Program-made: the position numbers and the translations under genes
Virus record (IMG/VR): IMGVR_UViG_3300032297_000598
Location: 1-22,263 of that record
Length of the DNA stretch: 22,263 nucleotides
DNA from: a virus
Direction: 5' to 3' (one strand)
The notes under the pieces: model-generated
The model's database searches: none
What the model was told of the DNA's origin: nothing
Seen by the model: only the letters and a program-made list of their open reading frames with translations
Shown here: positions 1-22,263 of the stretch, piece after piece
Numbering within the stretch: position 1 is the first letter of the stretch
Layout: each line of letters opens with the position of its first letter

Positions 1-141
1 CACGCTGATGTTGGCGATTGCTTCCGCCTCAGTCTTGCCGTGGGACACACCCGTCGTGCCGTCCGCCTTGCGGTACGTCACACCAACCAAAGCCACCGTC
101 TTGAACTTGCTCACCTTCAGAATGACAATCTCGTTTTGCAT
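1..141 (-). CDS. Partial hypothetical protein, N-terminal 47 residues
   Basis: An open minus-strand frame starts with ATG at 141-139 and runs off the left edge without a stop, giving 47 residues that begin MQNEIVILKV and end EAEAIANISV. I do not recognise the family. The frame is about 56% G+C by hand count, far above the AT-rich genes to its right, so it may belong to another module or have a separate origin. The 19 bases before the ATG show no Shine-Dalgarno sequence. It points away from the operon at 637, so the 495-bp gap between them is a divergent control region if both are real. Confidence is limited because only a fragment is visible; the regular codon structure supports it. Confidence 0.5.
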   Translation of the reverse strand, partial: MQNEIVILKVSKFKTVALVGVTYRKADGTTGVSHGKTEAEAIANISV

Positions 142-636
142 GGACACACTATGGGGGAAAACTCGGTGAGCGTCAACACTTTCAGATAGTTTTTTTCACT
201 TTTTTTCGATGGCCTGGAGGCGCTAGGTTGGCACACTTACTGCACCCAGCACATACCGTGCCAAGTTCTACTATCCCCCCGTTTTTTTGAAATTTTTTTG
301 TTTGACATTAGCGCAATCAAGGTGGGGGGAGGTTATTCTCAATCTCTAATCTCATTTTATCCTATCTATTACATTCTCAATATACCTAACTTACATATTA
401 TATTCATGTTATATATTTACCTATTCATATATTAATATCATCTTATCTTTATCTATTATATCTCCTTCTTATTATCTCAATAACAACACAACCCATACAC
501 CCCTCCCCCCTTTTTCTAAAAACAAAACAAAAACACGCTATAAATCCCTATAAAAAACACAAAAAAAATCCGAGCCATATATTTTCTAAAACAAAAAAAT
601 AAAAAACAAAGCTTTTACATATACAATATACTATAA
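142..636. other. Long non-coding divergent region with GC-rich and G-depleted halves
   Basis: No convincing gene lies in this 495-bp gap. The left part (142-332) is G+C-richer and carries two pairs of T7 tracts (190-196 with 200-206, and 282-288 with 293-299) spaced 10-11 nt, the helical phasing expected of bent DNA, plus C6 (275-280) and G6 (324-329) runs. The right part (333-636) has only five G on the + strand (408, 537, 572, 574, 611), while C, A and T are abundant. GGGGGGAGG at 324-332 is exactly complementary to CCTCCCCCC at 502-510, so the two could pair around a nearly G-free loop. Its role is unknown: control region, untranslated leader, replication site and module junction are all possible. 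Confidence 0.6.
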
Positions 637-638
637 AT
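623..638 (+). promoter_or_regulatory. Candidate start-proximal promoter element of the 637 operon
   Basis: The 16-mer ACAATATACTATAAAT ends on the ATG of the endonuclease VII-like gene. It differs at only two positions from ACAATATAGTGTAAAT at 8032-8047, before the PhoH gene. Both stand where a promoter is expected, at the head of a plus-strand gene run. There is no clear -35 box, and no Shine-Dalgarno sequence precedes the ATG. A transcript starting here would be almost leaderless. That this is a promoter is inferred from recurrence and position only. Confidence 0.35.
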
Positions 639-993
639 GTGTACAAAGATCTGCCGCAACTGTAAAAACGAAAAAGACATAAGTGAATTCCCATTCTTTT
701 CCACAAGTGACGCTGGCAGAAAAAACACTTGCAAGTCATGCAATAATGAACTCAGTTCATTGCGCCGAAACCTACGGTCTCAAAACCCCCCACCTCCTCC
801 CGGTAACTGTCCAATTTGTAAAAACTATACTAGCACATGGATATTAGACCATTGTCACTTTGATAATGTATTTCGCGGATATATATGTAACAGCTGTAAT
901 CTAGGTATTGGGCGCTTTAATGATGACGTTAATATTTTACATAAAGCTATAGAATATCTTAATAAAAATACGATTATAGAGTATCATATATGA
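637..993 (+). CDS. Endonuclease VII-like (T4 gp49 type) HNH nuclease
   Basis: A 118-residue protein matching the recombination endonuclease VII family, which cuts Holliday junctions and other branched DNA before packaging in T4-like phages. The C-terminal half has C58-x2-C61, then D71-H72 of the beta-beta-alpha metal site, then C84-x2-C87 followed directly by N88. This is the same order as the zinc cysteines and Asp-His-Asn active site of T4 gp49. A second cysteine set upstream (C6, C9, C32, C35) looks like an extra zinc ribbon, and residues 51-55 are five prolines. Its TGA overlaps the next ATG (ATGA at 990-993), so it is probably translated together with the glycosyltransferase operon. A free-standing homing-type nuclease of the same fold is the main alternative. 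The family is secure; the substrate is inferred. Confidence 0.88.
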   Translation: MCTKICRNCKNEKDISEFPFFSTSDAGRKNTCKSCNNELSSLRRNLRSQNPPPPPGNCPICKNYTSTWILDHCHFDNVFRGYICNSCNLGIGRFNDDVNILHKAIEYLNKNTIIEYHI

Positions 994-3900
994 AGGTATT
1001 GTACATTACGCCGCATCTATCTACTGGCGGCGCACCTCGCTATCTGCTAGAAAAAATTAGATTATTAAATGACTTGTGCGATATATATTGTATTGAGTAT
1101 ACAGACATTACTGGTGGCGTTTTAATCGTTCAAAAATCCGAAATTCAAAAACTTTTAGGAAATAAATTAATCACAATAGGCGAAAATAAATACGACATTA
1201 TAAAAGAAATAAATCGTATTACGCCCGATGTAGTTCATTTCGAAGAAATGCCAGAATATTTTTGTGATTACGAAGTAGCTAAACAGATATACAACGCAAA
1301 CAGAACATATAAAATATTTGAAACATCACATGATAGCAGCTTTAATGCTAACAATAAATTGTTTTTTCCAGATAAATTTCTACTTATTAGTGAATATCAA
1401 AGAAGGCTGTTCGAATCTATCGACGTTCCTTCTGAGATAGTTGAGTTTCCAATAACATATAAGAAAAAATCAGATAGAGCATCTGCTTTGCGTAAACTAA
1501 ATCTTGATCCAAACTATGTACATATAATTAATGTAGGATTATTTACTCCTAGAAAGAATCAAAAAGAATTAATAGAATATGCGCGAAAACTAGTTAATTT
1601 GCCAGTACGATTTCATTTTATTGGTTCATTAGCCGATAACTTTAAGTTTTATTGGGAAGATGCTATAAAAGATTTGCCTTCTAATTGTGTGGTATGGGGA
1701 GAAAGAGCAGATGTTGATAATTTTTATGATGCTGCTGACTTATTTTTCTTTGCGTCGAGAGGCTTCGAAAATGATAAAGAAACAAGTCCATTAGTTATAA
1801 GAGAATGTATAGGGTGGAATGTGCCTATTTTCTTATATAATTTGCCAGTTTATTGCGACATGTATAATAAATATGATAATATGATGTTTTTATCATTAGA
1901 TAATGACACTAATTTAAATAGTTTAAGAGAAAAGATAGTTTCAGTTTATGATGAACAAGTTAGAAAATATATAGATCCATCTTATTTTACTATAGACTTC
2001 TCAGGTGAGGAAAATAAGTTTTGGGTTTGGTGTCGCGGCTGTTCTAGCTTATTGCCTGAAATGAAGATTCATACAGTTTATAAAGACATAGATTCTTTAA
2101 CTACTTTTTATTCCATAAGAAATAATAATTTTAATAATGGCGGTGGAGTTTGGGCCATACCTATGCAGCAAAATTATGAATTTGGTAAAGATAAAAACTT
2201 TAGAGGCTTTCTTGTAGAATTTTATGATTTAAATTATAATTTACTATTTACTAAAGAACTTTTCACAAATAATTGTGCAAAAAATCCTGATAAAATTGAG
2301 TTTTCTCTTTTAAATCCATTCGATAGACCTTTCTGGAATTTTCAAGAAATGTTTGTAAATAAAAATATAGAAAAGCAGTTTCCTTCTCTTAATTTTCAGG
2401 ATTTAGATGTCGTGTTAGATGCTGGAGCTAATAATGGAATTTTTATTGAAAAGATGTTATTAGCGGGAGTAAAAAAGATTTATGGTTTTGAGCCTAATCC
2501 TAACGCTTTACGCAATCTAAATCACAGATACTCATCTAATCCAAGGGTAGAGATAATTGATAAAGCCGTAAGCGATACAAATGGAAAGTGTCAATTTTTT
2601 TATCATCCAGATAATTCAACAATAAGTGCATTTGATAAAAATCACATATCTTTTCATTTGCCAGAAAATGAAATTGTTAATTTCGAAGTCGATACCGTCA
2701 AATTAGATTCTTTCTGCGATTCTAAGAAAATAGATTACGTCGATTTAATTAAGATAGATATTGAAGGCGCAGAGTATATGGTATTGCATTCATTAGATTC
2801 AAGTTTCTATAAAAAAGTAAAATATTTGTTAATAGAAATTCATGAAAATAGAAATGATGAAGTCAAAAATTTGATTTCATATTTAAGAAGTTTAGATTTT
2901 GAGATAAATACTTTTGCCATCCGCGAAGAAAGCTGCTCCGAAAGTGAATTATTAAATTCACTTAATGGCATGTTTCTCGCGACAAATAAAAAACTAATTT
3001 CATCTAATAAGAATAAAGAAATTAAAGCTGCATTAGTAACAGATGTGTTTTTTCATAGTGAATGCAATTATTTAAATTTTTTTGAATACGCAAACAATAT
3101 GAAGAAAACAGGTTTACCTTTGTTGTTAATGACTAATTCAAAATTTGATAATAAAGTTTTGGATCATGTTGATTATTTAATTTACGATAAAGAAGATAGG
3201 CTTTTTAAAGATAAATATTCTCAATATAAATCTATAGTTTTGTTTTGCGCTGATAATAAATATGCTTTTAGATGTTCTATAGAAGAAAAGCAAAAACATG
3301 GGTTATCTGTTCTATCTAATATATATAGATCATTAATTTATTTAAAAAGTTTAAACTATACTCATATAGTAAAAACTGAAGCAGATTGCTTGCTAGAGAA
3401 TCCAGAAAGAATTAATGACGAACTAAGAAACATGGTTGATTCAAATAAAAAAGGTTTGATTTATTTACATAAAGATGGAGTAGATTTGTTTACTTCTTGT
3501 CATGTTTTATATTTTGATATAGACTTTTTACTTTCTTTGTATCCGCAAATAAACAACGAAAAAGATTATCAGGACTTTATTGATTGTGATAAATTTATTA
3601 TTGCAGAAGGCTTTTTGACTAAAGTCCTAAAAGAAAAAATGAATGAAATAATAGTTAGAGACGGTGATCTTATATTTTCAGATTTTGGAAAAAAAAGCGT
3701 CTGGAATAAAATTCTTTCTCCTAAAGAAAGTGATAAATTAATAAATGGATGTATACCTAATATTTTTAGAGTTTATGTTAATGACGTTTTGCAAGAAAAT
3801 ATTTTTGCGGTGGCTTTAATAAAAATTAATGATGTTAATAATGACTGCAAGTTTATAGTAAATATAAATGGAGAAGAAACTCAATATAATTTTTCTATTG

Positions 3901-4043
3901 ATGGCGTGATCTCTTATGAATTCGCCATGATTAAATTTGATAAAAAACCCACAATAGTTACTATGATCAAAGATGATTTTACAAAAATAGTAGAAGTGAC
4001 TAACGTAATGGAAATCGATAATACATTGTGTATAAAAGAATGA
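990..4043 (+). CDS. Multidomain GT4 glycosyltransferase / FkbM methyltransferase / probable GT-A fusion
   Basis: A 1017-residue fusion. Residues 1-330 are a GT4-type (GT-B fold) glycosyltransferase: glycine-rich STGGAPRYLL near the start, NVGLFTPRKNQ at 181-191 with the conserved Arg-Lys, and an EX7E pair at E264/E272. Residues about 335-450 are a beta-rich linker domain I cannot name. Residues about 470-665 are an FkbM-family methyltransferase: SAM-binding VVLDAGANNGIF (474-485), acidic FEPNP, and LIKIDIEGAEYMVL (586-599). Residues about 675-900 resemble a GT-A fold, with HIVKTEADC (792-800) offering an ExD metal site in place of DxD, and a beta-rich tail follows. One chain may therefore add, methylate and extend a glycan. 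It overlaps the genes on both sides by ATGA. The GT4 and FkbM domains are confident; the third is tentative. Acceptor and sugars are unknown. Confidence 0.85.
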   Translation: MKVLYITPHLSTGGAPRYLLEKIRLLNDLCDIYCIEYTDITGGVLIVQKSEIQKLLGNKLITIGENKYDIIKEINRITPDVVHFEEMPEYFCDYEVAKQIYNANRTYKIFETSHDSSFNANNKLFFPDKFLLISEYQRRLFESIDVPSEIVEFPITYKKKSDRASALRKLNLDPNYVHIINVGLFTPRKNQKELIEYARKLVNLPVRFHFIGSLADNFKFYWEDAIKDLPSNCVVWGERADVDNFYDAADLFFFASRGFENDKETSPLVIRECIGWNVPIFLYNLPVYCDMYNKYDNMMFLSLDNDTNLNSLREKIVSVYDEQVRKYIDPSYFTIDFSGEENKFWVWCRGCSSLLPEMKIHTVYKDIDSLTTFYSIRNNNFNNGGGVWAIPMQQNYEFGKDKNFRGFLVEFYDLNYNLLFTKELFTNNCAKNPDKIEFSLLNPFDRPFWNFQEMFVNKNIEKQFPSLNFQDLDVVLDAGANNGIFIEKMLLAGVKKIYGFEPNPNALRNLNHRYSSNPRVEIIDKAVSDTNGKCQFFYHPDNSTISAFDKNHISFHLPENEIVNFEVDTVKLDSFCDSKKIDYVDLIKIDIEGAEYMVLHSLDSSFYKKVKYLLIEIHENRNDEVKNLISYLRSLDFEINTFAIREESCSESELLNSLNGMFLATNKKLISSNKNKEIKAALVTDVFFHSECNYLNFFEYANNMKKTGLPLLLMTNSKFDNKVLDHVDYLIYDKEDRLFKDKYSQYKSIVLFCADNKYAFRCSIEEKQKHGLSVLSNIYRSLIYLKSLNYTHIVKTEADCLLENPERINDELRNMVDSNKKGLIYLHKDGVDLFTSCHVLYFDIDFLLSLYPQINNEKDYQDFIDCDKFIIAEGFLTKVLKEKMNEIIVRDGDLIFSDFGKKSVWNKILSPKESDKLINGCIPNIFRVYVNDVLQENIFAVALIKINDVNNDCKFIVNINGEETQYNFSIDGVISYEFAMIKFDKKPTIVTMIKDDFTKIVEVTNVMEIDNTLCIKE

Positions 4044-4972
4044 AAATAGTACACACACATCCAGGTTTGCTGCCAATTCCTCCTAATGGTTGGGGGGCTA
4101 TCGAAAAATTGATTTGGTTTTATCACGTTAAATCATTAGATAAAAATCATTTAAGCGAAATCAGATACACAGACGATATAAAGAAAAATGAATTTGATGT
4201 CGTACATGCTCATGTTGGTAATTTAGCAAATTTATTACACAGCAGAAATATTCCTTATTTTTTTAGCATGAACGATCATCATGCTTATTTATATGGAAAA
4301 GACTCTTACGTTTTTAAAGAAAATTACGAAGCTGCAAAAAATTCTATTCATACATTTGTGTCGGCTAAATTTCTTGTTGATTATTTTGATTTGCCAAATG
4401 TGAGTTATTTATCGCTTGGAGTAGATACGTCTTTTTTTAAACCAGCTCATTCTCTTAAACAACATAAGTTATTATGCGTAGCTAATAATGGATTTGGTCA
4501 TGATAATAGCGAAGATAGAAAAGGTTTTTCTTATGCTATAGAAGCGGCTAGAAGACTTAACATGCCGATAACTATTGCTGGCCCTAAAAATAATAAAAAC
4601 TTTTTTGATAAAATGAAAGTAGATTATGATAAGTTAGAAATAAAATATGATCTAACGGAAGAAGAATTACTTAAAACTTATCAAGAACACACTGTATTTT
4701 TACACGCTTCTATATTAGAAGGAGGTCATCCTAATTTAACTCTTTTAGAAGCTCAAGCTTGTGGTCTAATTGTATTGGCAACTTTTGAAAAAAATAATAA
4801 TTTGAAAGGTCTTGTAAGAATAGATAGAGATCACAGATTAATAGCCCAAAAAATCAAAGAAACCTTAGAAAATTATGACCATTTAAAGAAAATAACTTTA
4901 GAATCAGCGAAAGAAAGTGACTGGTCATCGGTCGTAGATAAAATGTTAGAAGTATATAAAAATAAAATATAA
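4040..4972 (+). CDS. GT4-family glycosyltransferase, short form
   Basis: A 310-residue GT-B type glycosyltransferase. I start it at the ATG at 4040, whose ATGA overlaps the previous stop as elsewhere in the operon; an in-frame GTG at 4028 would add four residues. The N-terminus MKIVHTHPGLLPIPPNGWGA is the usual glycine-containing acceptor-side loop of GT4 enzymes. The C-terminal nucleotide-sugar domain has DRKGFSYAIEAARRL at about 159-173 and EGGHPNLTLLEAQACG at about 227-242. That last block matches the EX7E region, but nine residues separate the two glutamates instead of seven, so donor binding may differ. No membrane segment or signal peptide is seen, so it should be cytosolic. Only one base separates its stop from the next ATG. 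The family is clear; donor and acceptor are not. Confidence 0.85.
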   Translation: MKIVHTHPGLLPIPPNGWGAIEKLIWFYHVKSLDKNHLSEIRYTDDIKKNEFDVVHAHVGNLANLLHSRNIPYFFSMNDHHAYLYGKDSYVFKENYEAAKNSIHTFVSAKFLVDYFDLPNVSYLSLGVDTSFFKPAHSLKQHKLLCVANNGFGHDNSEDRKGFSYAIEAARRLNMPITIAGPKNNKNFFDKMKVDYDKLEIKYDLTEEELLKTYQEHTVFLHASILEGGHPNLTLLEAQACGLIVLATFEKNNNLKGLVRIDRDHRLIAQKIKETLENYDHLKKITLESAKESDWSSVVDKMLEVYKNKI

Positions 4973-4973
4973 A

Positions 4974-6164
4974 ATGAAAGAACAACTTTTAAAAAATTAT
5001 TTTGAAACACCGTTTAATATAAAGCCTGTACTAAAACAAAAAAATTCAATTAACATAAGTTTCACTAATGGGCCATTTGTGGAAATATTTGGTAACGACC
5101 AAGAAAGTTATGACATAACATTTGAAGATCCTCGAAATAATTCAATTGTGCATTCCGCCACAATAAATAATAAAATGTGGACATCATGCAATGTAAAGTA
5201 TTACGTTCCTTGGAAAATAACAATTAAATCAAAATCATTTTCAGAAGAGTACATTTTGAATTTAAAAAATAAAAAAGTTTGTATTATAAACGATTCTTGT
5301 TCATTGGGCGACACAATTGCTTGGATGGATTCGATTGAAAAATTTCAGTTGAAACATGATTGTGTAATCGATTACTACACTCCTATCTTTGATATTTTTG
5401 ATCTTGATGCGTATAAAAATATTAACTTCTTTAATTTTTCTGATTTAAGCAAAAACCAGCTAAATTATAATCACATATATAAGATTGGATGTTTTAGACC
5501 ATTTGGGCCAAGTGGTTTTTGCGCTAAAGATTGGAGAACTATAAGCTTGTCAGATATAGCGAATGAAATTTTAGGTTTGCCGTATGGTAATAAACCAGCA
5601 AAACTAAAGAAACCTAATAAAATAACAAGAGAAAGAACAGTTTGCATAGCTACTCAAAGCACTGCTCAGGCTAAATACTGGAATAATGAAACTGGTTGGC
5701 AACAAACTATTGATTATTTAAAGAGCTTAAATTATAAAGTTATTTGTATAGATAAGGATAAACACTTTGGTATCGAAAAAAATATGAACACTATTCCAGA
5801 AAATTGTATTGACAAAACTGGAAATATAAGCTTACATGAAAGAATACAAGATCTATATAACTGCGATTTTTTTATAGGTTTGGGTTCAGGCTTATCTTGG
5901 TTAGCTTGGGGATGCGAAAAGCCGGTAATACTAATTTCTGGTTTTTCAGATCCTAATTCAGAATTTTATACTCCATACAGAGTTCATAATAAAAATGTTT
6001 GTAATAGTTGTTGGAATAATACAAAACACGAATTCAATGGTGGAGATTGGTTATGGTGTCCCGAACATAAAAATGATGATCGCATTTTTGAATGCTCAAA
6101 GAAAATAACTTTTGAGATGGTTAAAGAAAAAATTGATGCTTGTATAAAAGACAATAATCTGTGA
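4974..6164 (+). CDS. TibC/Aah-like protein O-heptosyltransferase, full length
   Basis: A 396-residue homologue of the bacterial autotransporter heptosyltransferases (TibC, Aah), which move heptose from ADP-heptose to serines of repetitive surface proteins. Residues about 25-100 form the family's N-terminal beta domain (GPFVEIFG, NKMWTSCNVKYYVPWKI). NDSCSLGDTIAW (106-117) carries the conserved Asp of the SLGD motif. STAQAKYWNNETGWQ (229-243) and FIGLGSGLSWLAWG (300-313) form the donor-binding half. C343, C346, C362 and C374 match the four cysteines of the iron finger that is diagnostic for this group. Length is as expected for TibC, and all key residues seem present, so it is probably active. 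Recognition is from memory of family motifs. The phage location is unusual; the acceptor could be the Ser/Thr-rich fibre at 21164 or a host protein. Confidence 0.85.
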   Translation: MKEQLLKNYFETPFNIKPVLKQKNSINISFTNGPFVEIFGNDQESYDITFEDPRNNSIVHSATINNKMWTSCNVKYYVPWKITIKSKSFSEEYILNLKNKKVCIINDSCSLGDTIAWMDSIEKFQLKHDCVIDYYTPIFDIFDLDAYKNINFFNFSDLSKNQLNYNHIYKIGCFRPFGPSGFCAKDWRTISLSDIANEILGLPYGNKPAKLKKPNKITRERTVCIATQSTAQAKYWNNETGWQQTIDYLKSLNYKVICIDKDKHFGIEKNMNTIPENCIDKTGNISLHERIQDLYNCDFFIGLGSGLSWLAWGCEKPVILISGFSDPNSEFYTPYRVHNKNVCNSCWNNTKHEFNGGDWLWCPEHKNDDRIFECSKKITFEMVKEKIDACIKDNNL

Positions 6165-7018
6165 AAACTTTAATAAATTTAATCTCACAAAGCCTTGGAG
6201 ATAATATAGCTTTTTCAGTATACGCCGATCTTTATCAAAAAAAGCATGGCGGTAAAGTTTATGTTAAAAGCAAATGGTTTGACTTGTTTTACTCTGATAA
6301 TCCAAATGTTTATTTTGTAGATTTAGATTATGAAGATACGTTTGATATCATAAAAGAAATTTGTTTTATTTTTCAGGAAGGTCCAATGCAAAAAATAATT
6401 TGCGATACTCTTGAATTAAATTATGAAGAAGTAATGCCTTTGATAAAAATATCAGATAAATATAAATTTAATAAAAAGAAAAAGTATGTTTGTATAAGTG
6501 TCCATTCTACAGCGCAAATGAAATATTGGAATAATGGCGTTGGTTGGCAAAAAGTCATTAGATATTTAAAAAAATTAAATTATGACGTTTATGTTATTGA
6601 TAAGTTCGAACTATTTGGATTGAAGGGAAATTTTAATAAAATTCCTGAAGGAGCTATAAATGAAACTGGAGATTATCCAATAGATTATAGAATACAGCAA
6701 ATTAAAAACTGTAGTTTTTTCATTGGTCTTAGTAGTGGTTTGTCTTGGTTAGCGTGGGCTTTAAATAAAAAAGTAGTAATGATTTCAGGATGCACCAACG
6801 AAGATAATGAATTTAAGAAAAATTCCTACAGAGTTATAAATAAAAATGTATGTCATGGTTGCTTAAATGATAGTTCAATAGACAATATTAAAGGAATAGC
6901 TGAAAGTTGGATGTATTGTCCCAGAAATAAAGATTTTGAATGTACGAAAACAATTTCTTTTGAAATGGTAAAAGAAAAAATTGATCAATGTATTAGTGAT
7001 TTAAATAAATATTCATAA
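6161..7018 (+). CDS. Second TibC/Aah-like O-heptosyltransferase, without the N-terminal beta domain
   Basis: A 285-residue paralogue of the preceding gene, starting at GTG in a GTGA overlap with its stop. It lacks roughly the first 100 residues (the beta domain) and begins at the catalytic half: NLISQSLGDNIAF (6-18) matches the SLGD block, STAQMKYWNNGVGWQ (116-130) the donor-site block, and FIGLSSGLSWLAWA (187-200) the glycine-rich block. The iron-finger cysteines are kept at C231, C234, C253 and C261. Sharing over the common region is high, so the pair most likely arose by tandem duplication and then lost the N-terminus in this copy. The loss may change acceptor choice or make it a partner subunit. 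The 3' end overlaps the convergent glycosyltransferase gene by 34 bp. It could be inactive, but no key residue is visibly missing. Confidence 0.82.
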   Translation: MKTLINLISQSLGDNIAFSVYADLYQKKHGGKVYVKSKWFDLFYSDNPNVYFVDLDYEDTFDIIKEICFIFQEGPMQKIICDTLELNYEEVMPLIKISDKYKFNKKKKYVCISVHSTAQMKYWNNGVGWQKVIRYLKKLNYDVYVIDKFELFGLKGNFNKIPEGAINETGDYPIDYRIQQIKNCSFFIGLSSGLSWLAWALNKKVVMISGCTNEDNEFKKNSYRVINKNVCHGCLNDSSIDNIKGIAESWMYCPRNKDFECTKTISFEMVKEKIDQCISDLNKYS

Positions 7019-8031
7019 TAGTCACATTGTTGTTTGATTGTGAATTTAGAGATAGCATTATTATAACAATTTTTAGGATCAATTAAGTTTTTTACGTTTT
7101 GAACAGCATAAATTATATCATTTATGTTTGAGCATCTAAATCCAGTTTCGCCTTGAGATACAGTTTCAGTAAAACCGCCAAAATTAGTTGTTATCGTTGG
7201 CGTTCCTGAAAATTGAGCTTCAATAACAGTCCAATTGCACGGTTCTATAAATAATGAAGGAGCGAATAGAAATTTAGCATCGCTAAGTAAATACATTCTT
7301 TTAATAGGATCGACGAAACCGACAAATTGACAATATTTAGTTTCTTTTAAACCTAGTGTGTTTGGGCCAGCAAAAATTATATCTTGTTTTAAATCATTGC
7401 ATATATCATAAGCAACTTTAGCTCCTTTCGCTTCTGTGATTCTGCCTAAAAATAAAGCTGTATTAGATTTTTCTTTTTTATAAAAAAAATCATTAGGATC
7501 AAAACCGGGATAAACTACAAATTCGTTTCCTATATCTACATTAGTAGAAGAGTATCCATGCATTTTATGCATTTGACTATGAGTTTCGAATATTTTGATA
7601 GGCGCAAACATGCTATCATAACCTATACTTGGTTCTACAACTACAGCTTTATCATAAAAATGTTTAACACATGGTTCATGAGCAAATCCAAACCAACATA
7701 AAATAAATTCTTTATTCGATTTAATTCTTTTACTTAATTCAATAATGCAGTTATTATTAAATATACTAACTGCTTTTGTATTTACATTTTGATTGAATCC
7801 TTTTTCTTTCCAATCATTTAAGTTGCCATAACTCTCTTTTAATATATCATTATTAATAACATTAATATGCTCTGTACAATTAACAATGGAGTCTTCATGA
7901 CCGTAGTGGTAAACAGTATGGCCTCTTGCAGTCATTTCTTCGCAAAATTTGTAAACTTTTTGCACGAAAGCGCACAAAGAAATATCTTTTCTTGTCGATG
8001 AATATGGAACGCTTAAACAGTGAAAAACCAT
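6985..8031 (-). CDS. GT4-family glycosyltransferase on the opposite strand
   Basis: A 348-residue GT-B glycosyltransferase and the only complete gene here on the minus strand. The C-terminal domain shows FLGRITEAKGAKVAYDI (194-210) with the conserved Arg and Lys, FAGPN at about 220-224, and EPCNWTVIEAQFSGTP (263-278) with a correct EX7E pair (E263, E271). The N-terminal half is a Rossmann-like acceptor domain with MTARGHTVYHYGHE at 33-46, typical of GT4. No signal peptide or membrane helix is seen. It faces away from the PhoH gene with only 27 bp between the two start codons, and its 3' end runs 34 bp into the second heptosyltransferase gene. Divergent orientation implies separate transcription and perhaps later acquisition. 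Donor and acceptor are unknown. Confidence 0.85.
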   Translation of the reverse strand: MVFHCLSVPYSSTRKDISLCAFVQKVYKFCEEMTARGHTVYHYGHEDSIVNCTEHINVINNDILKESYGNLNDWKEKGFNQNVNTKAVSIFNNNCIIELSKRIKSNKEFILCWFGFAHEPCVKHFYDKAVVVEPSIGYDSMFAPIKIFETHSQMHKMHGYSSTNVDIGNEFVVYPGFDPNDFFYKKEKSNTALFLGRITEAKGAKVAYDICNDLKQDIIFAGPNTLGLKETKYCQFVGFVDPIKRMYLLSDAKFLFAPSLFIEPCNWTVIEAQFSGTPTITTNFGGFTETVSQGETGFRCSNINDIIYAVQNVKNLIDPKNCYNNAISKFTIKQQCDYYEYLFKSLIH

Positions 8032-8058
8032 ACAATATAGTGTAAATTTCTAAATAAC
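8032..8058. promoter_or_regulatory. Compact divergent promoter region with GTGTAA element
   Basis: Only 27 bp separate two divergent start codons, so the signals for both must lie here or inside the genes. The + strand has ACAATATAGTGTAAAT (8032-8047), nearly identical to 623-638. Its GTGTAA (8040-8045) lies 19 nt before the PhoH ATG, and CTAAATA (8050-8056), close to T4-type late promoter sequences, follows. TACA and TGTA at 8031-8044 form a short inverted repeat. There is no Shine-Dalgarno sequence on either side. Confidence 0.4.
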
Positions 8059-8808
8059 ATGTCAACCAAAAAGAAAAAAATCCAAAAAGAAAAAGAAGAT
8101 CTTAACGAAATCATTGCCGATAATCATTTTAGATCTGTTAAATTAAATATTAAAAACTTCAATTTAACAGACAAACAAAAAAGTTTCGCTCAGATAGCCT
8201 TCGATAAGAATACAAAGATTATTTTTATTAATGGTCCCGCTGGTTCTTCTAAAACATTTTTAGCTGTTTATTGTGCGCTTCATATTTTGAATATGAATCC
8301 TAGATCAGAGCTAAAATATATCAGAACCATCGCTGAATCAGGCGAAAGAGCTTTAGGTTCATTACCTGGAACTGTGGATGAAAAGTTTAATCCATTTATG
8401 ATGCCATTGTATGATAAATTAGATGAGTTGTTACCAATGTCTCAATCTAAATACCTAGAAACAAATGGTTTTATTGAAGCGCTTCCTATAAATTTCTTAA
8501 GAGGAGCTACTTGGAATGATAAGATTATTATTGCTGATGAATCTCAAAACTATAGTAGCAAGGAATTGATCACGCTTCTCACTCGTATTGGAGAAAATAC
8601 CAAGATGTTTATCTGCGGTGATGCAATGCAATCAGATATCGGTAATAAATCTGGTTTTATGAGAGTATATGATCTTTTCAATAATAAAGAAAGTGAAGAG
8701 CGCGGTATTTATTGTTTTCAATTTGATGAAGAAGATATTATGCGCAGCGAAATTCTAAAATATATCGTCAGCGTGTTTAAGAAATTAGATAAAACAAATA
8801 TACACTGA
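8059..8808 (+). CDS. phoH: PhoH-like P-loop ATPase
   Basis: A 249-residue protein of the PhoH family, common in large phages. It has Walker A GPAGSSKT (59-66), the family block GERALGSLPGTVDEK (95-109), Walker B IIIADESQN (156-164) and ICGDAMQSDI (185-194), which contains the conserved Gly-Asp of the PhoH core. The first 20 residues are lysine-rich and poorly conserved. Length fits single-domain PhoH proteins. It should be a soluble cytoplasmic ATPase; the role in phages is unsettled (phosphate stress and RNA-related functions have been proposed). It leads the plus-strand run that continues through the sigma factor into the packaging genes, and carries the GTGTAA element upstream. Family assignment is secure. 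Confidence 0.92.
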   Translation: MSTKKKKIQKEKEDLNEIIADNHFRSVKLNIKNFNLTDKQKSFAQIAFDKNTKIIFINGPAGSSKTFLAVYCALHILNMNPRSELKYIRTIAESGERALGSLPGTVDEKFNPFMMPLYDKLDELLPMSQSKYLETNGFIEALPINFLRGATWNDKIIIADESQNYSSKELITLLTRIGENTKMFICGDAMQSDIGNKSGFMRVYDLFNNKESEERGIYCFQFDEEDIMRSEILKYIVSVFKKLDKTNIH

Positions 8809-9929: not shown

Positions 9930-11000
9930 ATGTTAACTGACGAAAATAAAGCATTTATTCTAAGAAAAATAAACGAAGGAACACAAGATTATGTTGTGTT
10001 GGCTAATCTTGTCTTTAATAGAGAAGATTTAACAGGTAGATCTAAAGAGGCTAAAGCAGTTAGAGATTTTTTAATTACAACTGGATTTACGAAGAAACAA
10101 GAAAAACCCAAGCCTACCCAAACGGTAGAAATACTATCAAAAGAAAACTGCGAATTCATTGACCAAAACATAAAAACAGGAATTACCCCCAGACAAGTAA
10201 CAGAATTAATATTTCATGAGAAATTTGTTGGACTAGAAAACATAAATATATTTATTACTCCAGAATACAGAGCAGTTCAAAAATATATAAAAGAAAAATA
10301 TCCTGATTTCCTTGTGGATAATGAGTCTGGAGTTGGAGATAAATACTCTGTTCCTCGTTCTATTAAAACAGTAATAAATAAAGTAAATAAATGGGCTGGG
10401 CAAAATATTTCAGAAGAAAAACTTTCATTGCAGCATAGAAAATGCATGGAAAAATTATTAACTTATCTATCAAGTCCTAGATTTGTTGGTAATTATGATT
10501 CTTACAACAGTTCTACAGACAAAGAGTTATTTGAAGCTGAGTTTGTTCGTTCAGTCTGGGATAAGCCTGATCTAACTGTTGATGAAATTAATTTATATAT
10601 TAATGTTTGCATGGATTATATCAATCTACGTCAAATTGATATCAAAAAGAATAAAATTAACGATATGTTTAATGAAACGCAAGATCAAAAAGATTTTACA
10701 ATGCGTTTAACTGAAGTGCTAAAAACTATTTCAGAAGAGTATAATCAATGCGCTAGCCGTATTGATAAAAGCATTCAGAAACTAAACGGCGAACGTTCAA
10801 AAAGAGTTGAGCAAACTCATCAGAAGAACGCTTCAATACTTAATCTTGTAGAACTATTTCAAGATGAACAAGAACGCAAAATGATGATTCAAATCGCAGA
10901 TATGCAAAAACGAACAATCAAGGAAGAAGCTGATCGTTTGGAAAATATGTCTGCATGGAAAGCTAGAATTTTAGGAATTTCTAAAGAAGATGCTATATGA
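9930..11000 (+). CDS. Hypothetical protein with duplicated N-terminal domain and coiled coil
   Basis: A 356-residue, mostly helical protein that I cannot assign. I start at the ATG at 9930, directly after the sigma-gene stop; an ATG at 9909 would add seven residues and overlap it. The N-terminus holds an internal duplication: LTDENKAFILRKINEG (2-17) aligns with LSKENCEFIDQNIKTG (69-84), and similarity continues into LANLVFNREDL against TELIFHEKFVGL and KAVRDFL against RAVQKYI. Each copy is about 50-58 residues and looks like a small helical, perhaps DNA-binding, unit. Residues about 240-345 are charged and likely coiled coil. Position just ahead of nuclease and terminase genes makes a packaging role (small-terminase-like) possible, but nothing diagnostic is seen. 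Its TGA overlaps the next ATG. Confidence 0.7.
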   Translation: MLTDENKAFILRKINEGTQDYVVLANLVFNREDLTGRSKEAKAVRDFLITTGFTKKQEKPKPTQTVEILSKENCEFIDQNIKTGITPRQVTELIFHEKFVGLENINIFITPEYRAVQKYIKEKYPDFLVDNESGVGDKYSVPRSIKTVINKVNKWAGQNISEEKLSLQHRKCMEKLLTYLSSPRFVGNYDSYNSSTDKELFEAEFVRSVWDKPDLTVDEINLYINVCMDYINLRQIDIKKNKINDMFNETQDQKDFTMRLTEVLKTISEEYNQCASRIDKSIQKLNGERSKRVEQTHQKNASILNLVELFQDEQERKMMIQIADMQKRTIKEEADRLENMSAWKARILGISKEDAI

Positions 11001-11662
11001 TAAATCACGAAAGAAAATGGTTACTTTACGATGATCGTAATAAGAAGTTTTTTGAAAAAAACTTCATTAACGTATTTAATGATTCACAGTGGATGTGGTT
11101 CGATTATTTTTATAAAGAGATATACGATTGTGAATATTCTAAAACTAATTGTGTGTATGAAATGTCTGACTGTATAATTAATAAGGATGATGTAGTTGTT
11201 GATTTAGGGGCTAATGTTGGTTTCTTCACCAACTACGCTGCTCAAAAATGTAAAAAAGTTATATCAGTTGAAGGAGGAGATGCTTTTTTTAGTTGTTTGG
11301 TAAAAAATACATATGAAAATAGAAATATAGAATATTTAAATGCAAACGTTGTTGCTGAAAACTCTAAAATTAATAATACATGGGCCAATCCAACTAAAAT
11401 AAATTTAACTATCTCTAATATTTTCGATTTATACAATTTAGATAAAATTAACTTTTTGAAAATTGATATAGAAGGTAGCGAGTATGATATATTTAAAAAT
11501 ATTGATAAAAATATTTTATCTAGAATAGAAAAAATAGCTATCGAGACTCATGATCCAAATAGAAATGATGAATTAATAAATAATATTAATAAAAATAATT
11601 TGTTTCGTTTTGATTGGTGTGTTGGAGGGAATACGCAAACAACATTTTATTTTACCAATTAA
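10997..11662 (+). CDS. FkbM-family SAM-dependent methyltransferase
   Basis: A 221-residue stand-alone FkbM-type methyltransferase. The SAM site is VVVDLGANVGFFTNYA (66-81) with ISVEGGDAF (89-97) after it, and FLKIDIEGSEYDIF (153-166) is the FkbM signature. These enzymes usually O-methylate sugars or related hydroxyls. It is the same family as the middle domain of the fusion at 990, but the N-terminal sequence is different and the match is moderate, so it is not a recent copy. It sits between a gene of unknown function and a nuclease gene of the packaging module, away from the glycosyltransferases, coupled by an ATGA overlap upstream and one base from the next ATG downstream. No membrane segment is seen. 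The target is unknown; a virion glycan is one option. Confidence 0.85.
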   Translation: MINHERKWLLYDDRNKKFFEKNFINVFNDSQWMWFDYFYKEIYDCEYSKTNCVYEMSDCIINKDDVVVDLGANVGFFTNYAAQKCKKVISVEGGDAFFSCLVKNTYENRNIEYLNANVVAENSKINNTWANPTKINLTISNIFDLYNLDKINFLKIDIEGSEYDIFKNIDKNILSRIEKIAIETHDPNRNDELINNINKNNLFRFDWCVGGNTQTTFYFTN

Positions 11663-18840: not shown

Positions 18841-20016
18841 ATGAAAATCGTTTTAAAGAGAACAGATGAACAAGTCGAGCTAATCAAAGCTCTAGCCTCA
18901 AAGAACCGTGAAGTAGCCTTCGATGCTCAAGTAGCATTGGCTGAATTCATTGGACCAGTATTGGCTGAAGTAATTAATAACGCTCCAACCATCTCCAACT
19001 TGTTCACAAGCCTTCAGTTCAATGCTGAAGATAATCCCTCAATTCCTCTAGACCTCTATTATGATATCTTCGACGAAGATTACATCAAGGTCTATAGCCA
19101 AAGTGTCGCTGGTGGTCTTCCTCAGAACGTAGTTCAACCTTTGGCTTCTGAGCTAAAGATCGCTACTTATCGTCTCGACAGCGCTGTCGCTTTCGATAAG
19201 AAGTACGCCGCTAAGAGCCGCTTGGACGTAGTTAGCAAGTCTTTCACTCGCATTGCTCAGGAAGTCATGCTCAAGCAAGAAAGAACTTCTGCTAACCTCG
19301 TAATGACTGCTCTAGCTCAAGCTTCAACTGGTAATGATAGCACTGCTGCTAATAATTATCACGTTTTCCGCTCTGCTGCTGCTGGTCGTTTCGTTCTTAA
19401 CGACTTGAACAAGCTATTCACCAAGATCAAGCGTATTAACGCTTCATTCGTCGGTGGTACTCCTTCTGGCGCTCGTAGAGGTCTAACTGATCTTATCGTT
19501 TCTCCAGAAATCATCGAAGAAATTCGTGGTATGGCTTACAACCCAATCAATACTAAGGGAAGTTTGACCACTGGTAACGCTGCTTCACAAACAGCTTCAA
19601 ATGCTCCTATCGCTGCTACTGATGAAATTCGTAATCAGCTTTTCAGTCAGTCCGGTATGCCTGAATTCTTCGGAGTTTCTATTATGGAAATTCTTGAATT
19701 CGGTGTTGGCAAGAAGTTCACCACCATTTTCGATACAGTCGCTAGCACTACAGCTTATGCTGATAACTATGCTGTACAGTCCAATGGTGGCACTGCTCAA
19801 CAATTCCTCGCTACTGAACAGATCGTAGTTGGTCTCGACAGATCACGCGATTCACTCGTTCGCGCTGTAGCTGTTGATGCTGATTCTGGATCTGAATTCA
19901 ATCTAGTCGCTGATGACCAATATACTCTACGTCAGGGTAAGATCGGTTATTATGGCGCTCTTGAAGAGGGCCGCATGGTTCTCGACAATCGCGCTTTGGT
20001 TGGATTGATTGTCTAA
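18841..20016 (+). CDS. Major capsid protein (HK97-type)
   Basis: A 391-residue protein at the major capsid position, directly before a strong terminator. It begins with a helical segment (DEQVELIKALASKNREVAFDAQVALAEF, residues about 9-36, given here only as limits), then FNAEDNPSIPLDLYYDIFDEDY, where an HK97 E-loop/N-arm may lie, and a long helix-like block with KSFTRIAQEVMLKQ resembling the spine helix. DLIVSPEII (221-229) and FGVSIMEILEFG are typical P-domain and A-domain strands. There is no long N-terminal delta region, as expected when a separate scaffold is present. Codons are the most optimised in the window (many AAG, GCC, CTC, ATC, TTC). The call rests on position, length, fold-like pattern and expression bias, not on a unique motif. 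Confidence 0.8.
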   Translation: MKIVLKRTDEQVELIKALASKNREVAFDAQVALAEFIGPVLAEVINNAPTISNLFTSLQFNAEDNPSIPLDLYYDIFDEDYIKVYSQSVAGGLPQNVVQPLASELKIATYRLDSAVAFDKKYAAKSRLDVVSKSFTRIAQEVMLKQERTSANLVMTALAQASTGNDSTAANNYHVFRSAAAGRFVLNDLNKLFTKIKRINASFVGGTPSGARRGLTDLIVSPEIIEEIRGMAYNPINTKGSLTTGNAASQTASNAPIAATDEIRNQLFSQSGMPEFFGVSIMEILEFGVGKKFTTIFDTVASTTAYADNYAVQSNGGTAQQFLATEQIVVGLDRSRDSLVRAVAVDADSGSEFNLVADDQYTLRQGKIGYYGALEEGRMVLDNRALVGLIV

Positions 20017-21163: not shown

Positions 21164-22263
21164 ATGGCTAATATTGATGTAAAAGTAGATTCGAATACTA
21201 ATGCTGTAAAAGTTGAAGTAGTAGGTGGGGCTACAATAGCCGCAGTAGATACTACAAATAAAAATAATGTTGTAATTCAATCTGTTCCACCTCCAACCGT
21301 AACAGGTATAATTGTGGAAAGAGGTCCAGCAGGAACTTCAGGCTCAAGTGGAGTATCAGGAACTTCTGGAATATCAGGAACAAACGGATCTTCTGGAATA
21401 ACTGGATCATCAGGTACATCTGGATCATCTGGAACGACTGGTTCATCAGGAAGTAGTGGATCTTCGGCAACTAGTGGAAGCTCTGGAATAGACGGAACTT
21501 CTGGATCTAGCGGAATTTCAGGAAGTTCAGGAACATCTGGTTTAAATGGTTCTAGCGGTAGTTCAGGTAGTAGTGGGTCATCAGGATCATCAGGAAGTTC
21601 TGGTTTTTCTGGAAGTAATGGATCATCTGGAAGTAGCGCTTCATCTGGAACATCAGGGGTAAATGGCTCTAGCGGTTCATCTGGAACTTCTGGAATTAAT
21701 GGTTCCAGCGGAAGTTCTGGAACTGCTGGAAGTTCTGGATCGTCTGGTACTAACGGCACTTCTGGAACAACTGGTACTTCTGGTTCAACTGGATCTTCAG
21801 GAACATCAGGAATAAATGGTTCTAGCGGTTCATCTGGAACTTCTGGAATTAATGGTTCCAGCGGAAGTTCTGGAAGTTCTGGAAGTTCTGGATCTTCTGG
21901 TACGAATGGCACTTCTGGAACAACTGGTACTTCTGGCTTAACCGGATCTTCAGGAACATCAGGAATAAATGGTTCTAACGGTTCATCTGGAACTTCTGGA
22001 ATTAACGGTTCCAGCGGAAGTTCTGGAAGTTCTGGATCATCTGGAACTAACGGCACTTCTGGAACAACTGGCACTTCTGGCTCAACCGGATCTTCAGGAA
22101 CATCAGGAATAAATGGTTCTAGCGGTTCATCTGGAACTTCTGGAATTAATGGTTCCAGCGGAAGTTCTGGAAGTTCTGGATCATCTGGAACTAACGGCAC
22201 TTCTGGAACAACTGGCACTTCTGGCTCAACCGGATCTTCAGGAACATCAGGAATAAATGGTTC
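21164..22263 (+). CDS. Collagen-like Gly-Ser/Thr fibre protein, 3' end outside the window
   Basis: A plus-strand frame from the ATG at 21164 stays open to the right edge (over 365 residues). Residues 1-52 are a small beta-rich head (VKVDSNTNAVKVEVVGG, PPPTVTGIIVERGPAG). From GPAGTSG on, glycine occupies nearly every third position in G-X-Y triplets with X and Y mostly Ser, Thr, Asn or Ile, for example GTSGINGSSGSSG. Such collagen-like repeats form trimeric shafts in phage tail or head fibres. Proline is nearly absent, so stability must come from elsewhere, possibly polar zippers or glycosylation. One triplet is imperfect (SSATSG, around residue 101). The frame follows the beta-rich gene by one base. 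Its Ser/Thr density makes it the best candidate in the window for modification by the heptosyltransferases, although no direct evidence links them. Confidence 0.85.
   Translation, partial: MANIDVKVDSNTNAVKVEVVGGATIAAVDTTNKNNVVIQSVPPPTVTGIIVERGPAGTSGSSGVSGTSGISGTNGSSGITGSSGTSGSSGTTGSSGSSGSSATSGSSGIDGTSGSSGISGSSGTSGLNGSSGSSGSSGSSGSSGSSGFSGSNGSSGSSASSGTSGVNGSSGSSGTSGINGSSGSSGTAGSSGSSGTNGTSGTTGTSGSTGSSGTSGINGSSGSSGTSGINGSSGSSGSSGSSGSSGTNGTSGTTGTSGLTGSSGTSGINGSNGSSGTSGINGSSGSSGSSGSSGTNGTSGTTGTSGSTGSSGTSGINGSSGSSGTSGINGSSGSSGSSGSSGTNGTSGTTGTSGSTGSSGTSGING
21659..22263 (+). repeat. 144/153-bp tandem repeats in the fibre gene
   Basis: The ATA/GTA-AAT-GG landmark recurs at 21659, 21812, 21965, 22109 and 22253, giving periods of 153, 153, 144 and 144 bp (17 or 16 Gly-X-Y triplets). 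The last two complete units are almost identical and the first is more diverged. All periods are multiples of nine, so the frame and triplet register are kept. The array continues past the right edge. Recombination within it would change fibre length. Confidence 0.9.

Follow-up and report, generated by a model that had tools for sequence, protein, structure and literature searches.

Why would a phage carry, side by side, two genes for enzymes resembling TibC, and what might these enzymes modify? TibC itself is a bacterial enzyme that puts heptose on surface proteins, and what is known of its type is the modification of adhesins of bacteria in connection with virulence. The question is raised by IMG/VR virus record IMGVR_UViG_3300032297_000598 (the window: the whole 22.3-kb stretch analysed), in which gene A encodes a full-length TibC-type protein and gene B a shorter paralogue, the two overlapping by 4 bp (B starts with GTG at 6161; A stops with TGA at 6162-6164). 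An initial annotation had assigned both to the TibC/Aah type and proposed that they serve to glycosylate a repetitive protein, either of the phage or of its host. The explanation we consider best, and probable if well short of certain, is that A and B are active enzymes of a largely viral clade that put a host-derived sugar on serines of the phage's own collagen-like fibre, whose glycan is then processed by GT4 and FkbM enzymes.

We read the window's open reading frames (ORFs) with Pfam, NCBIfam and PHROG profiles. Both products exceed the curated 200-bit cut-off of the NCBIfam model TIGR04414 (hepto_Aah_TibC; length 374), A with 324.1 bits (E 1e-96, model positions 4-372) and B narrowly, with 206.2 bits (E 7e-61, positions 85-373) and 200.5 bits in a second scoring. 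The PHROG search returned no family for either, and a sequence search of the PDB gave TibC (4rap) as by far the best solved relative (7.5e-74 for A, 1.3e-39 for B). Both proteins have the sequence features on which the initial annotation had relied, namely four cysteines and the blocks SLGD, AQ-x-KYWN and GLSWLAW. In TibC numbering (eLife 2014 study, PMC4358343), A and B both keep D110, T226, K230, R286, W305 and C339/342/358/370. Across 99 unique viral domains, D110 and T226 are each conserved in 98, K230 in 94, W305 in 99 and R286 in 71, and all four iron-finger cysteines occur in 99/99, as a sequence motif, the metal itself being beyond modelling. AlphaFold2 (AF2) models of A (predicted local distance difference test, pLDDT, 91.6) and B (84.9) match TibC with template modelling (TM) scores of 0.85-0.86 and 0.81-0.85, or about 0.86 and 0.83 when normalised to the query; the structural matches that follow TibC are heptosyltransferases of the WaaC/WaaF type. 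No unrelated glycosyltransferase family matched better, the next-best families being far weaker heptosyltransferases, and the four-cysteine motif was lost in none of the viral domains compared. Profile score, residues, cysteines and predicted fold thus all support membership of the TibC sequence family for both proteins, which we predict to be active protein O-glycosyltransferases (GT9, GT-B fold). That both copies are intact, as first read, is borne out by these residues and by selection: against four relatives, the nonsynonymous rate (dN) was about 0.06-0.20 and the synonymous rate (dS) about 1.2-2.0 for each, dS being near saturation, and a dN/dS well below 0.2 in both indicates strong purifying selection. 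Together with the intact residues, this rules out B as a decaying pseudogene.

Phage copies of such genes are not rare, as a profile-guided scan found TibC-type relatives encoded in at least 553 IMG/VR stretches. Many are multi-domain fusions with GT4, FkbM or DUF3431. In a quick tree with some long branches, a mainly viral clade stands apart from 48 bacterial rows of autotransporter enzymes (support 98), a separation that led us to reject a recent acquisition from the autotransporter locus of a pathogen; a few bacterial genes group with the viral ones.

What these enzymes might modify is suggested by their genomic company. The strand-loop-strand repeat of autotransporters, TIGR04415, which is the acceptor known for TibC/Aah, was found in 0/25 viral records, the window included, so that we rejected an autotransporter-type acceptor in the phage, and it occurs in 10/16 genomes of the bacterial (autotransporter) clade vs 0/9 of the viral clade. 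The window instead ends in a collagen-like ORF (Table 1) of about 100 triplets, mainly Gly-Ser-Ser and Gly-Thr-Ser, that is about 41% Ser, with Ser in most Y positions and a repeat essentially free of proline. Gly-X-Y repeats at 15 loci share this composition (Y is Ser in 80%, X mostly Thr or Ser, proline 0.1%). The acceptor is probably a collagen-like repeat rich in Ser and free of proline, like that of this ORF, rather than an autotransporter repeat. A long antisense ORF of the PEVPDDP type (21277-22263, minus strand) simply results from the Gly-X-Ser repeat on the opposite strand; we rejected the antisense reading of such repeats because the plus-strand ORF starts 1 base past the preceding stop and matches the collagen profile.

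The association with this repeat extends beyond the window. We selected 50 viral contigs on a single criterion, the presence of a Gly-[S/T]-[S/T] repeat, and 36 control contigs by an arbitrary 14-mer: TIGR04414 matched in 21/50 (20 over the cut-off) vs 0/36 (Fisher p 1.4e-6), and any strong collagen match occurred in 3/36 controls. When contigs were limited to 30-80 kb, TibC was present in 9/31 repeat contigs vs 0/20 controls (p 0.008). With a conserved 391-aa ORF (18841-20016) as lineage marker, close relatives carry the repeat gene just downstream of this ORF wherever the contig reaches, and a TibC-type gene in all nine long contigs that also span the upstream island, whereas relatives at 60-73% identity have neither (0/13); this joint presence and absence may be a single evolutionary event. 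The collagen-like gene lies downstream of the putative capsid gene throughout the lineage, and in other phages (L096, L009, L010) the repeat ORF is only 31-438 bp from the TibC gene. Glycosylation of a repetitive phage protein, as first suggested, thus gains support from the genomic link to collagen-like repeats of the Gly-X-Ser kind; no such link was seen for the repeat of autotransporters.

The cleanest evidence that the viral TibC branch serves this repeat comes from bacteria. Five chromosomal genes of the viral clade (four Methylococcaceae, one Polaromonas) adjoin a small Gly-Thr-Ser-repeat gene, and the four methanotroph repeat products open with what looks, on inspection by eye, like a signal peptide. 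Such a neighbour was found at 0/57 autotransporter-clade loci; by a strict repeat criterion the comparison is 4/9 viral-clade vs 0/57 autotransporter-clade loci (p 1.7e-4). These pairs also bear on a non-protein acceptor, that is, transfer of heptose by A and B, together with their GT4 neighbours, onto a lipid-linked or lipopolysaccharide (LPS)-type glycan. We think this quite unlikely: the LPS heptosyltransferases WaaC and WaaF do belong to GT9 folds, and polysaccharide loci typically have GT4 and FkbM genes close by, but TibC is far the better match in sequence and fold, the iron finger is invariant, and the repeat-protein gene adjoins the enzyme gene in five cellular genomes. Similarly unlikely is that A and B, as true protein glycosyltransferases, act on a host surface protein or adhesin, for instance to block superinfection or change a receptor. 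Phage glycosyltransferases are usually read as altering the host surface (PMC7029224), known TibC/Aah enzymes modify surface adhesins (PMC4358343), and relatives differ in the island that separates the endonuclease VII-like gene from PhoH. However, several lineages show the enzymes coupled to a repeat gene that belongs to the phage itself, and the autotransporter repeat was not found in a search that covered viral records only.

Modification of the phage's own fibre could proceed as follows. During infection, A, alone or with B, would move a sugar onto serines of the terminal collagen-like ORF. Conserved residues suggest that this sugar is most likely heptose, drawn from host ADP-heptose: Asp113 of A (TibC Asp110) would act as the base, Thr230 and Lys234 would hold the donor phosphate, Arg290 the adenine and Trp309 the sugar. 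Because GT4 and FkbM enzymes adjoin and are fused to TibC-type genes, we propose that the neighbouring ones then probably extend and O-methylate the glycan, which would stabilise, solubilise or disguise the proline-lacking fibre. Without proline, a collagen helix is expected to be weak. Some animal collagens gain stability from sugars at the Y position, as vent-worm cuticle collagen does from threonine-linked galactose. Glycans are likewise thought to help the collagen-like protein BclA (PMC8968730). Some other glycine-rich fold is equally conceivable for the repeat. More generally, and tentatively, at just short of an even chance, the viral TibC branch may be a dedicated collagen O-glycosyltransferase system that adds heptose to serine at the Y position of Gly-[T/S]-Ser repeats devoid of proline and so yields stable, protected fibres without proline or hydroxyproline, in many aquatic phages (as fibres) and a few bacteria (Methylococcaceae, Polaromonas; as small secreted proteins).

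Several observations weigh against glycosylation of the phage's own fibre by A and B. Enzymes and repeat ORF are 14 kb apart in the window. TibC is absent from 29/50 repeat-bearing contigs, and about 10/23 TibC contigs above 30 kb have no strong collagen match, although every contig is a fragment. Repeat contigs are also longer than controls (4.5 vs 1.65 Mb in all), which favours an indirect link, with TibC and collagen-like repeats each merely frequent among large aquatic phages that infect certain hosts; the lineage comparison, too, may reflect one gain or loss. We nonetheless regard an indirect link as improbable, as the length-restricted test still holds and the gene-beside-gene pairing recurs in bacterial chromosomes of the viral enzyme clade, not of the autotransporter clade. 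The adenine-contacting Arg286 equivalent, present in A and B, is missing in 28/99 viral domains. The donor is the weakest link of the mechanism: in the viral records searched, no HldE domain exceeded its cut-off and GmhA alone was found, in one megaphage, so a complete phage-borne ADP-heptose pathway is rejected and the host must supply the donor. Finally, two structural features of TibC are missing from one or both proteins. Its dodecamer needs a hydrophobic tip on the beta-hairpin thumb (PMC4358343), and the tip residues F265/V266 are replaced by K and N in A and by G and N in B; since the tip is not conserved, the quaternary structure of both proteins probably differs from the TibC dodecamer. 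Deletion of the N-terminal beta-barrel abolishes TibC activity (PMC4358343), which bears on whether the barrel-less B is active.

A has this barrel (AF2 strands 25-106, aligned to TibC). B begins at the catalytic domain, and the early remark that the second copy lacks the N-terminal beta domain proved correct; every relative in its clade (15 viral rows, support 99) lacks it too. Only one B-bearing record in the set, a 7.9-kb fragment, has no A-type gene, whereas A-type genes often occur without B. Because barrel deletion inactivates TibC and no sizeable B record is without an A-type gene, B may depend on A; otherwise it may need another acceptor. B could thus be a partner of A, either as a subunit of a hetero-oligomer or by acting only on a glycan that A has started, a possibility that concerns B alone, is compatible with fibre glycosylation and in our view falls somewhat short of even. 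The catalytic Asp and all donor residues of B are kept under strong constraint, and a purely structural subunit would not need them. Position 300, which sets the heptose stereochoice in TibC/Aah (Pro/Ser; PMC4358343), corresponds to Gly in A and Ser in B.

How does this system compare with known ones? A and B share with TibC/Aah (BAHT, TIGR04414; 4rap, 4rb4; PMC4358343) the sequence family, GT-B fold, catalytic Asp, donor residues, iron finger and, in A, the barrel, as well as a partnership with a repetitive Ser-rich protein, which we infer for the phage enzymes. Unlike TibC/Aah, they belong to a separate, mainly viral clade, have no strand-loop-strand autotransporter partner and carry a changed thumb tip; B is barrel-less, and viral relatives are often fused to GT4, FkbM or DUF3431. 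Judged by their sequences, A and B are not autotransporter heptosyltransferases in the strict sense (BAHT), given the missing partner and the changed thumb tip; rather, the phage enzymes would work like TibC, on a probably different repeat, in viruses. The Mimivirus collagen lysyl hydroxylase-glucosyltransferase L230 (PMC9614988) is likewise a viral enzyme that glycosylates viral proline-poor collagen-like proteins, but it is unrelated, puts glucose on hydroxylysine and comes from a virus of eukaryotes, whereas the phage enzymes are presumed to put heptose on Ser. BclA of Bacillus spores (PMC8968730) is a bacterial collagen-like repeat with glycans. No viral gene is involved there, and bacterial collagens of the BclA kind contain proline, of which the phage repeats have hardly any. 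BclA glycosylation uses a different enzyme set. The collagen-like tail fibres of E. coli O157 prophages are phage structural proteins with a Gly-X-Y stalk, but their X positions are rich in proline, and the recombinant protein that was examined carried no glycosylation (PMC3368898). We found no earlier report of a phage TibC-type glycosylation system in the literature searched. A large, mainly viral TibC branch tied to another repeat would point to a widespread phage protein-glycosylation system, seemingly unnoticed, and, if true, to an unrecognised viral route to sugar-coated fibres; it would give otherwise unexplained phage glycosyltransferases a concrete acceptor and possibly answer how proline-free collagen-like repeats hold together. 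The two-gene bacterial version makes the idea easily testable.

The window carries an endonuclease VII-like gene, a closely spaced four-gene run (990-7018) that ends with A and B, an opposite-strand GT4 gene, PhoH and a sigma-like ORF, followed by genes for an FkbM protein, an ERCC4-type nuclease and the large terminase subunit, by ORFs placed where portal, protease and capsid protein would be expected, and by the collagen-like ORF (Table 1). The portal, protease and capsid labels reflect gene order only, with no convincing profile match. Between the endonuclease VII-like gene and PhoH (637-8031), glycosyltransferases and fusions vary among relatives, and the A-type and B genes persist. Start sites of 19/20 window genes have no Shine-Dalgarno-like motif and their leaders are AT-rich, resembling Bacteroidota phages; a Bacteroidota host would fit the missing motifs, without being proved by them.

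Table 1. Glycosylation-related features of the window.
Coordinates (strand)	Feature	Length	Evidence	Remarks
990..4043 (+)	GT4-FkbM fusion	1017 aa	Pfam and NCBIfam matches	First gene of the run ending with B; GT4-type glycosyltransferase ~167-301, FkbM methyltransferase 477-638, C-terminal part without assignment
4028..4972 (+)	GT4-type glycosyltransferase		Pfam Glycos_transf_1, 7.8e-8	Present in relatives L003-L007, 84-92% identity
4974..6164 (+)	A, predicted full-length TibC-type protein O-glycosyltransferase	396 aa	TIGR04414, 4rap, AF2 model	
6161..7018 (+)	B, barrel-less TibC-type paralogue	285 aa	TIGR04414, 4rap, AF2 model	
6985..8031 (-)	GT4-type glycosyltransferase, phrog_3408		PHROG, 3.1e-60	Conserved between B and PhoH, seen in relatives
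10997..11662 (+)	FkbM-family methyltransferase		TIGR01444, 1.8e-18	Only in some relatives, including L005/L019
21164..22263 (+)	Collagen-like Gly-X-Y repeat ORF, proposed acceptor		Pfam Collagen, 4e-47	Truncated by window end

Among named phages, only four records have a TibC-type gene. One is that of Microcystis phage Mel-JY01; the other three are from megaphages, and two of these have the same length and apparently represent one genome. The megaphage GmhA (phosphoheptose isomerase) gene lies at 430182-430640 of L258 (LR756504.1), a 636-kb genome, about 27 kb from its TibC-type gene, and exceeds the NCBIfam cut-off. Mel-JY01 (L031, PP395634.1) groups with L010, L011, L013 and L014 in a subclade without the Arg286 equivalent and with the thumb changed to Y-M, hinting, at the sequence level, at another nucleotide-sugar donor. 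In the same record, the deposited minus-strand gene at 739-2298 lies opposite a long plus-strand Gly-Thr-Ser repeat ORF (2-3052), and the gene at 4750-8430, labelled only as an FkbM methyltransferase, contains a TibC domain. TibC genes of the viral clade also turn up in metagenome-assembled genome contigs tagged Chloroflexi, Pacearchaeota and Rickettsiaceae (L116, L136, L158), which appear to be phage contigs placed in the wrong bin. L035 (7175-11119), L039, L051 and L053 encode multi-domain proteins in which a degenerate TibC-like domain (46-62 bits) accompanies the intact one. Lastly, L021 (7305-9965) encodes a GT4-TibC-DUF3431 fusion (DUF3431 match 7.9e-35), in which DUF3431 may be a further glycan-modifying domain.
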